DNA of 39,152 nt from Candidatus Sulfopaludibacter sp. SbA3 (lineage in GTDB: Bacteria > Acidobacteriota > Terriglobia > 20CM-2-55-15), in assembly GCA_945865815.1 (NCBI GenBank), contig CAMBFR010000025.1, forward strand, positions 1 through 39,152, read 5' to 3'. The translations under genes and the position numbers were made by a program. The notes under the pieces are model-generated. The model saw nothing but the letters and a program-made list of their open reading frames with translations, did not search any database and was not told where the DNA came from. Shown here one piece after another: positions 13,795 through 15,908 of the stretch. Position 1 is the first letter of the stretch. Every line of letters starts with the position of its first letter.

Positions 13795-13840
13795 AGGTTT
13801 GCCATCTCCTCTTTGAAAAACTGTAGCAGTACAAAATACT

Positions 13841-14021
13841 CCCCTCCTGGATTAGGAGGGGTGCCGCTCGCGCGTTTGTTAGCGAACGGCGGGGTGGTAT
13901 ACATGACGCAAAGCCACCTTATAGATAGTCGCGAAGCGCACCGATTCAAAGGTCGATTCGCGCCTTCCGTACCACCCCGTCTGCGCCTTCGGCGCAGCCA
14001 CCCCTCCTAAGACAGGAGGGG
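13841..14021. repeat. MITE-like multi-hairpin repeat, copy 1 (181 bp)
   Basis: Both ends are small hairpins built from CCCCTCCT and AGGAGGGG. Inside, GGGGTGGT (left) is complementary to ACCACCCC (right), so the whole unit can fold as nested stems. A stem-loop TGCGCC/GGCGCA lies near the right end. The last 57 bases are identical to those of the copy at 27129-27341; the interior differs. No ORF is carried. It sits between the pruA start and the end of the rhodanese gene. Confidence 0.85.
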
Positions 14022-14034
14022 AATTTGGACTCAC

Positions 14035-14355
14035 CTACAGCTTGTCGACTGTGGGCAGTCCTTCCTTCTTCCAATCACGCAGGCCGCAGTAGTGCACGGC
14101 CTTGTAGCCTGCTTTTAAAAACGCTTCAGCGGCGCGCGACGCGCGCCCGCCCCCGCCTCAGTAAAAGACGATCGCGGCACTTGCGGGAAATTCCTTCATC
14201 CTCTTTTCCAACTTGCCCATCGGAATGTGGATGGCTCCGGGAATCGCGCCACCGTTCCTGATTTCACTGGTTTCGCGAATGTCGACTACAATTGGCCTCG
14301 TCTTCGATTCCAGTTTCTGCTTCAATTCCATGATCGGGATTCGTTCTGCCGGCAT
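14035..14355 (-). CDS. Rhodanese-domain protein with in-frame UGA (probable selenoprotein)
   Basis: Reading the TGA at 14158-14160 as selenocysteine gives one intact 106-residue rhodanese. Residues 1-65 contain VVDIRETSEIRNGGAIPGAIHIP and AIVFY. Position 66 is Sec, followed by GGGGRASRAAEAFLKAGYKAV, HYCGLRDW and KKEGLPTVDKL before TAG. In rhodaneses the active-site loop is C-x-x-G-x-R preceded by a hydrophobic strand; the TGA falls exactly on that cysteine. The loop reads U-G-G-G-G-R. A hairpin with SECIS geometry follows. Cys90 could resolve a selenenyl-sulfide. Cysteine rhodaneses transfer sulfane sulfur; a Sec enzyme would be more redox-active. The alternative is a recent nonsense mutation, but the downstream frame is undamaged. 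No selA/B/C/D is in the window. Confidence 0.82.
14128..14150 (-). promoter_or_regulatory. Candidate bacterial SECIS hairpin
   Basis: On the rhodanese mRNA, GGCGCGC (14147-14141) pairs with GCGCGCC (14137-14131) around the triloop GUC. A few further pairs are possible below one bulged G. The loop starts 17 nt after the UGA and its first base is G. These fit the usual bacterial SECIS limits (loop roughly 16-37 nt from UGA, G among the first loop bases). High local GC makes a chance hairpin possible. Confidence 0.6.
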
Positions 14356-14378
14356 GGCACAATTCTACCGGAGGTTGT
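14356..14378. promoter_or_regulatory. 23-bp divergent start region (rhodanese / DUF1326)
   Basis: Only 23 bp separate the two start codons. On the plus strand GGAGG precedes the DUF1326 ATG. On the minus strand there is no Shine-Dalgarno sequence, but TAGAAT (14367-14362), a good -10 box, lies 6 nt before the rhodanese ATG. This suggests a leaderless rhodanese transcript. Confidence 0.4.
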
Positions 14379-15011
14379 ATGTCTAAAGTACCGTGGAGAT
14401 TGAAAGGACAATACATCAAAAACTGCAACTGCCTGGCGACCTGCCCGTGCGACACGATCGGCGTCCCCGCGCCGGATAAGCACTGCGAGGGGATGGCGGG
14501 CATGCACATCCAGCAGGGAAACTATGGCGGCGTCAAGCTTGACGGCTTGAGCTGGGCCGTGACGTATCACTGGCCCGGCGCGCTGCACGAAGGCAATGGC
14601 ACGGCACAGCCGTTCATCGACAGGAGCGCGACCGAGGAGCAACGAAGCGCTTTGCTGCAGATTATGAGCGGCAAGGCCGGCAATATCTGGTTCGAGATTC
14701 TCGCATCGATCGTCACGACTTTTCACGAGCCGCAGTTCCTTCCCATCACATGGGAATTCGACAAGAAGGGCCGCCGCGCCAAGGTTGTGATTCCAGGTTT
14801 CCTGGAAACCGTGTCGGCGCCGCTCCGGATACCAGCCACAAACGACGAGCAGGAAGTCATCGTCTCCATGCCGAACGGAATGGAGTACAAGCAATTCCAG
14901 GTGGCGCAGGCCGTGGTCTTGAAAGGCACCGGACCCATAAAGTTCGATTGCGTTGGCACGCACAGCAGCCTGGCCGACATCGAGCACACGGAGGCCGGAC
15001 TCCGGGCGTAA
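14379..15011 (+). CDS. DUF1326 domain protein
   Basis: The 210-residue protein matches DUF1326. It begins with WRLKGQYIKNCNCLATCPCD, a cluster of four cysteines (positions about 15-24) typical of the family. Conserved segments such as GVKLDGLSWAVTYHWPGALHEGNGTAQPFID and a C-terminal half with FDCVGTHSSLADIEH follow. No signal peptide or membrane helix is visible. The function is unknown; the cysteine cluster suggests metal or thiol chemistry. DUF1326 genes are commonly next to DUF2182 genes, as here. GGAGG lies 5 nt before the ATG. It is divergent from the Sec-rhodanese. Confidence 0.88.
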   Translation: MSKVPWRLKGQYIKNCNCLATCPCDTIGVPAPDKHCEGMAGMHIQQGNYGGVKLDGLSWAVTYHWPGALHEGNGTAQPFIDRSATEEQRSALLQIMSGKAGNIWFEILASIVTTFHEPQFLPITWEFDKKGRRAKVVIPGFLETVSAPLRIPATNDEQEVIVSMPNGMEYKQFQVAQAVVLKGTGPIKFDCVGTHSSLADIEHTEAGLRA

Positions 15012-15107: not shown

Positions 15108-15908
15108 ATGCCTAAAGAACGAATCGAACCTTCCCAACTATCCCTGCTGGCCACGGTCGCGGTCTTGACGACGATTGCCTGGTATTTCACCTTTGCGCAG
15201 GTGCAAAGCATGGGACTGCTCATGAGCCTTGGCGTCCCCATGTCCCTGGGCATGGAAGGTTGGGCGGGATGGACCAGCTTCGCCGCGTTTACCGGAATGT
15301 GGCTGGTCATGATGGTCGCGATGATGCTGCCGTCCAGCTATCCCACTCTCCTCCTTCATCGCACCGTTTATAGAAAACGAACACCCGATACTCCGGGCGG
15401 CACATTCCTTTTCGGATTAGGTTATTTCCTCACATGGACAGCTTGCGGCAGCTTCTTTTACGCGGCCTACGTCATGATCGGAGGCTTTCGCGAATACGCG
15501 GTCAGCGCGGACACTGTTGTGCTTCGGGCAGCGGGCGTCGCGTTGATGCTCGCGGGACTGTATCAGTGGACCCGCTTGAAGCAGGCATGCCTGAAACACT
15601 GCCAGAACCCGTTACACTTCATCGCGGAACACTGGATCGACGGCCGGGGCGGCGCCTTCCGGATGGGAATCCGGCACGGCATTTACTGCTTTGGCTGCTG
15701 CTGGGGCCTGATGGTGATCCTGTTCGTAATGGGCGTGATGCACCTGGGCTGGATGGCGGCCATCGGCGCGATCATCCTTCTGGAAAAGATCGTTGCCGGC
15801 CGGAACTGGGTTCCCAGAATGATTGGCGGAATCTTCTTTGTGCTGGGGCTCACGGTAACAATATTTCCGGAAGTCCTCACGCGCATTTCCGCGCAGGTGG
15901 TCTTATGA
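15108..15908 (+). CDS. DUF2182 predicted metal-binding integral membrane protein
   Basis: This 266-residue, highly hydrophobic protein has about seven transmembrane helices and matches DUF2182. The diagnostic segment is AFTGMWLVMMVAMMLPSSYPTLLL, rich in methionine. LKQACLKHCQNPLHFI, GIRHGIYCFGCCWGLM and the final GIFFVLGL helix follow. The Met- and Cys-rich helices and the H-x(3)-CFGCCW motif suggest metal binding in the membrane; the substrate is unknown. It probably works with the DUF1326 protein 96 nt upstream. Confidence 0.88.
   Translation: MPKERIEPSQLSLLATVAVLTTIAWYFTFAQVQSMGLLMSLGVPMSLGMEGWAGWTSFAAFTGMWLVMMVAMMLPSSYPTLLLHRTVYRKRTPDTPGGTFLFGLGYFLTWTACGSFFYAAYVMIGGFREYAVSADTVVLRAAGVALMLAGLYQWTRLKQACLKHCQNPLHFIAEHWIDGRGGAFRMGIRHGIYCFGCCWGLMVILFVMGVMHLGWMAAIGAIILLEKIVAGRNWVPRMIGGIFFVLGLTVTIFPEVLTRISAQVVL

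Follow-up and report, generated by a model that had tools for sequence, protein, structure and literature searches.

A predicted selenocysteine-containing rhodanese from Acidobacteriota with a conserved in-frame TGA at its catalytic position

A small single-domain rhodanese gene located at positions 14035 to 14355 on the minus strand of the window (the whole stretch of 39,152 nucleotides analyzed here) is predicted, with high confidence, to encode a selenoprotein in which UGA at residue 66 is decoded as selenocysteine (Sec). The preliminary description of this DNA had proposed a probable selenoprotein, and our results agree with that proposal on three counts: the Sec machinery is present in the genome, TGA or Cys is conserved at the site in relatives, and a SECIS-type hairpin downstream of the TGA is frozen at the codon level.

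Read conventionally, the frame opens at an ATG (14353-14355, minus strand) and is ended after 65 codons by the TGA at 14158-14160. When the TGA is read as Sec, another 40 codons follow before the TAG at 14035-14037, giving a coding span of 14038-14355 on the minus strand and a product of 106 amino acids, MPAERIPIMELKQKLESKTRPIVVDIRETSEIRNGGAIPGAIHIPMGKLEKRMKEFPASAAIVFYUGGGGRASRAAEAFLKAGYKAVHYCGLRDWKKEGLPTVDKL. The frame had been described earlier with these same coordinates, correctly, as had the 65-residue fragment expected of an ordinary gene call. The readthrough product matches the Pfam rhodanese model PF00581 over residues 10 to 97 (E = 3.4e-15; 56.8 bits against a cut-off of 22.2), and since this match spans residue 66, both flanks of the TGA form one domain. 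Translation and homologue alignment place residue 66 in the column of the catalytic Cys, the nucleophile of rhodaneses, at the head of an active-site loop reading U-G-G-G-G-R (U-x4-R); the earlier claim that the TGA falls on the catalytic Cys codon with the geometry of the loop preserved is thus accurate. No NCBIfam model scored above its cut-off against the product, and for this reason ordinary gene finders are likely to overlook the gene or to report a 65-residue fragment.

We searched for homologues in 200 related genomes and then in 396 genomes across the phylum. The clade containing the window protein comprises 18 sequences (L017-L029 and L073-L077, with the duplicate record L047 left out), of which 17 have TGA at the site and one, L023 from genome G037, has TGC. 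The TGA-bearing members are spread over several families, and the same TGA column recurs in more distant acidobacterial rhodaneses (L030, L032-L034, L037, L040, L042, L043, L045, L046, L078-L080, and L082). Homologues lacking TGA always carry Cys at this position. As judged from these alignments, conservation of TGA at the catalytic column is far beyond chance. In a FastTree phylogeny computed with the Sec column masked, the Cys homologue L023 falls inside the Sec clade, and the Cys genes L031 and L039 cluster with the Sec genes L030 and L032; with so short a protein, branch supports are moderate. These placements are as expected if Sec and Cys have been exchanged repeatedly.

An AlphaFold2 model, computed from a three-sequence alignment with Sec modeled as Cys (pLDDT 82.5, pTM 0.76), adopts the rhodanese fold, and its top Foldseek matches in the PDB are rhodanese-like proteins. 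In the predicted structure, Sec66 directly follows strand 61-65, and a second residue, Cys90 (TGC codon at 14086-14088, minus strand), directly follows strand 86-89. We take these two strands to be adjacent in the rhodanese sheet, which would place Cys90 near the active-site loop. Cys is present at position 90 in 30 of 32 Sec homologues and in 4 of 12 Cys homologues, counts that include one duplicate Sec record and are drawn from related sequences. Cys90 is therefore a candidate resolving Cys. In the scheme we propose, Sec66 would act as the nucleophile of a small cytoplasmic rhodanese at its U-x4-R loop, attacking a sulfane sulfur or an oxidized thiol or peroxide substrate; Cys90 would resolve the intermediate as a Sec66-Cys90 selenenylsulfide, which a thioredoxin- or glutathione-type reductant could regenerate. 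What computation supports is that the site is conserved, that the protein has a rhodanese fold, and that the recoding signal and the Sec machinery are present; the chemistry and the physiological substrate are our inference. On the strength of a single Cys that correlates with Sec and of a modeled fold, we see roughly an even chance that the protein is a redox-active enzyme handling persulfides or peroxides rather than a plain thiosulfate:cyanide sulfurtransferase.

A serious rival, contesting only this functional half of our explanation, is that the protein is a classical sulfurtransferase or a persulfide or perselenide carrier, in which Sec66 passes sulfane sulfur or selenium to an acceptor and Cys90 is incidental. 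We regard it as a real possibility, though one falling somewhat short of even. The loop speaks for it, as six residues are typical of sulfurtransferases and the Cdc25 and arsenate-reductase types have a longer one; so do the nearest structures, among which are a persulfide dioxygenase-rhodanese fusion, a CoA-persulfide reductase, and generic rhodaneses. The skewed distribution of Cys90 between Sec and Cys forms points away from it, as does the observation that most known selenoproteins are thiol oxidoreductases (PMC9312934). A broader version of the redox reading concerns the clade as a whole. Signal-peptide-like or lipoprotein-signal-like N-termini were recognized by eye in L021-L029, L040, L042, L043, L045, and L046, suggesting that some Sec rhodaneses may be exported; because the window protein instead begins MPAERIP, family members seem to differ in cellular location. 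We suggest, tentatively and with some doubt, that the acidobacterial Sec rhodanese clade, with its cytoplasmic (window) and signal-peptide-bearing exported forms and a dedicated Sec66-Cys90 redox pair, could constitute a distinct oxidoreductase family with a rhodanese fold instead of a group of sulfurtransferases.

Reports of Sec-containing rhodaneses go back to the Sargasso Sea survey (PMC1088965), and the accessible part of a 2026 catalogue lists five rhodanese-like selenoprotein forms, two of them with a UxxG motif (PMC13188914); the statement in the preliminary description that such proteins appear in surveys was correct. UxxG rhodanese selenoproteins are thus a known kind, and what is new here is the acidobacterial member. 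Forms 2 and 4 of the catalogue (PF00581; MBM9537886.1 and MCY3690685.1) share UxxG with the window protein, where it reads U66-G67-G68-G69, a likeness of motif and domain; the accessible text does not mention Acidobacteriota for either form. Form 3, NCBIfam NF041203 (rhodanese_LYCAU), is likewise a small rhodanese-related (seleno)protein and aligns over nearly the whole length, but its motif is C-x-U, with Sec elsewhere in the loop, whereas the window protein has no CxU and, scoring 39.8 bits where the cut-off is 115, is not a member. TsoB (NF045694) also contains a Sec rhodanese domain, but it is a large rhodanese/DsbD fusion with two Sec residues, unlike the 106-residue window protein, which scores 25.2 bits against a cut-off of 805 and does not belong to that family either. 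Ordinary single-domain rhodaneses such as GlpE and PspE (PDB 1gmx, 3foj, 3iwh, and 3gk5) have the same fold and active-site loop, but they carry Cys in place of Sec and have no SECIS, and most Cys homologues in our set lack Cys at position 90. Our literature search, which covered few subscription journals, found no report of rhodanese selenoproteins in Acidobacteriota, and the available passages of reviews on selenoproteins do not discuss the phylum. The Sec rhodaneses described here give Acidobacteriota an additional, well-supported clade of selenoproteins; SelB is common in this phylum, occurring in 145 of the 200 relatives searched.

The RNA downstream of the TGA contains a hairpin, GGCGCGC-GUC-GCGCGCC (14131-14147, minus strand), that has the features of a bacterial SECIS upper hairpin. 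Its 7-bp stem starts 10 nt past the TGA and its apical GUC loop lies 17 nt past it. According to the accessible part of PMC13188914, the bSECIS model specifies an apical loop of 3 to 9 nt, a stem of 4 to 16 bp, a G in the first two loop positions, a spacing of 16 to 37 nt, and a minimum free energy of -7.5 kcal/mol or lower. The hairpin falls within these bounds, with a GUC loop (or C-GUC-G), 6 to 7 bp, a spacing of 16 to 17 nt, and -12.9 kcal/mol, and the loops C-GUC-G, C-GGA-G, and C-GGC-G all conform to the N1-G-[G/U]-N-N2 pattern given in the same text. Neither energy nor pattern is discriminating here. Compared with dinucleotide shuffles the hairpin folds no better (z = -0.26), energy being uninformative because the region is very GC-rich; the bSECIS pattern scan by itself had no specificity, as it also picks out two Cys genes, L039 and L085; and an Rfam search of the window gave no match. 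Strong evidence comes instead from conservation at the codon level. Codons +4 to +8 past the TGA (GGG CGC GCG TCG/GAG CGC) show 100% identity among synonymous pairs in a set of 11 Sec genes, compared with a mean of 0.51 over the rest of the gene. All seven pairs and the loop G are retained in 17 of 17 Sec genes, with changes from G-C to G-U at two pairs; when synonymous codons are resampled, about 0.4% of the draws for a gene still contain the hairpin. The loop varies among GUC, GGA, and GGC, which correspond to Ser, Glu, or Ala codons, and this tolerance suggests that conservation at the hairpin acts on the RNA in addition to the protein. In the Cys homologue L023 the region reads GGC AGA GCC TCG CGA, leaving three of seven pairs and no loop G. 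Intact in the Sec genes and lost from the Cys gene, the hairpin marks a clean natural instance of Sec/Cys exchange, one that is well suited to experiments on the contribution of Sec to a rhodanese.

The source genome (G000; 4.34 Mb in 193 contigs, 98% complete) contains all four components of the Sec pathway; the absence of selB, selC, and selD would, according to the preliminary description, have spoken against a selenoprotein. The tRNA-Sec gene (selC) scores 69.9 bits against a gathering threshold of 47 and is identified by ARAGORN as tRNA-SeC (anticodon tca), SelB is a single open frame scoring 386.9 bits (cut-off, 242), and SelA and SelD score 564 and 362 bits, respectively. In our model, the hairpin would recruit SelB with Sec-tRNA(Sec) to the UGA through its apical GUC loop. 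The SelD gene (G000:C15:15603-16520, minus strand) has an in-frame TGA of its own, in MRLTEFAKSAGUAGKLGPGDL, where SAGUAGK is the active-site motif that we take to correspond to that of Cys17 in E. coli SelD. SelD is therefore itself a predicted selenoprotein, so this rhodanese is very probably not the only gene of the organism in which UGA is read as Sec. Among relatives, 34 genomes have a rhodanese match interrupted by TGA, and SelB is present in 32 of them, compared with 145 of 200 overall (Fisher p = 0.001, with the TGA position checked in fetched loci only and without correction for kinship, so that the test overstates significance because the sequences are related). The two TGA-bearing genomes in which SelB was not found, G023 and G043, are 88% and 82% complete. 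A separate relative, G015, has two full-length SelB genes (C197:6211-8094 and C17:10596-12518), both far above the cut-off.

The TGA could in principle be a functional stop that yields a 65-residue half-domain protein, the downstream part being produced by reinitiation or by readthrough without Sec. The 65-residue ORF does formally exist, but homologues without TGA carry Cys at the site, SelB co-occurs with the TGA-bearing genes, and the hairpin has the form required of a SelB-type SECIS, loop pattern included; we consider this reading very improbable.

Between the window gene and L018, dN is 0.25 before the TGA and 0.07 after it, ratios being indicative only as dS is near saturation, and the region downstream of the TGA appears from this comparison to be under purifying selection. 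The earlier argument that intact flanks are not expected of a random nonsense mutation is in keeping with this low downstream dN, the single PF00581 domain, and the TGA shared across the clade. Decayed homologues, which the preliminary description held would count against a selenoprotein, do occur: in L048, whose DNA is 88 to 89% identical to the window, positions corresponding to about 13811-14262 are missing and about 33 codons of the gene remain, and the copy in L050 is frameshifted and internally deleted. The decay is by deletion and frameshift, however, and not by a stop at the TGA codon. These deleted copies indicate that the gene is dispensable in some relatives. That the gene is a pseudogene, its TGA a genuine stop and the downstream frame a relic, gains something from such losses but is rejected as extremely unlikely in view of the TGA in 17 of 18 clade members from several families, the low dN after it, the frozen SECIS codons, and the full Sec machinery.

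The genes surrounding the Sec rhodanese provide no clue to its role. A DUF1326 gene (14379-15011, plus strand) diverges from it, with a PpoB2/DUF2182 gene (15108-15908, plus strand) alongside. The rhodanese and DUF1326 genes start divergently, with 23 bp between their start codons (14355-14379). So short a spacer could hardly accommodate two promoters; one or both probably lie within a neighboring gene, unless a start has been misplaced. A tblastn search around 13 homologues did not find DUF1326, DUF2182, or the aldehyde dehydrogenase, and no relationship was seen between the flanking genes of different genera, an OmpA-family gene in two genomes of one genus being the one shared neighbor; a literature search for DUF1326 with DUF2182 found nothing. 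We therefore rejected the DUF1326/DUF2182 neighborhood as a clue to, or defining feature of, the small form that the preliminary description suggested may be undescribed; the UxxG kind is already in the accessible part of PMC13188914. Between the rhodanese and aldehyde dehydrogenase genes lies an element of about 183 bp (13840-14022) with 24-nt inverted repeats at its ends. Its core, GGAGGGGTGGC...GGGGTGG, has 29 copies in the genome and 0 in a reversed control, making the element a dispersed REP/MITE-like intergenic repeat. The deletion in L048 takes in this repeat together with most of the rhodanese gene.
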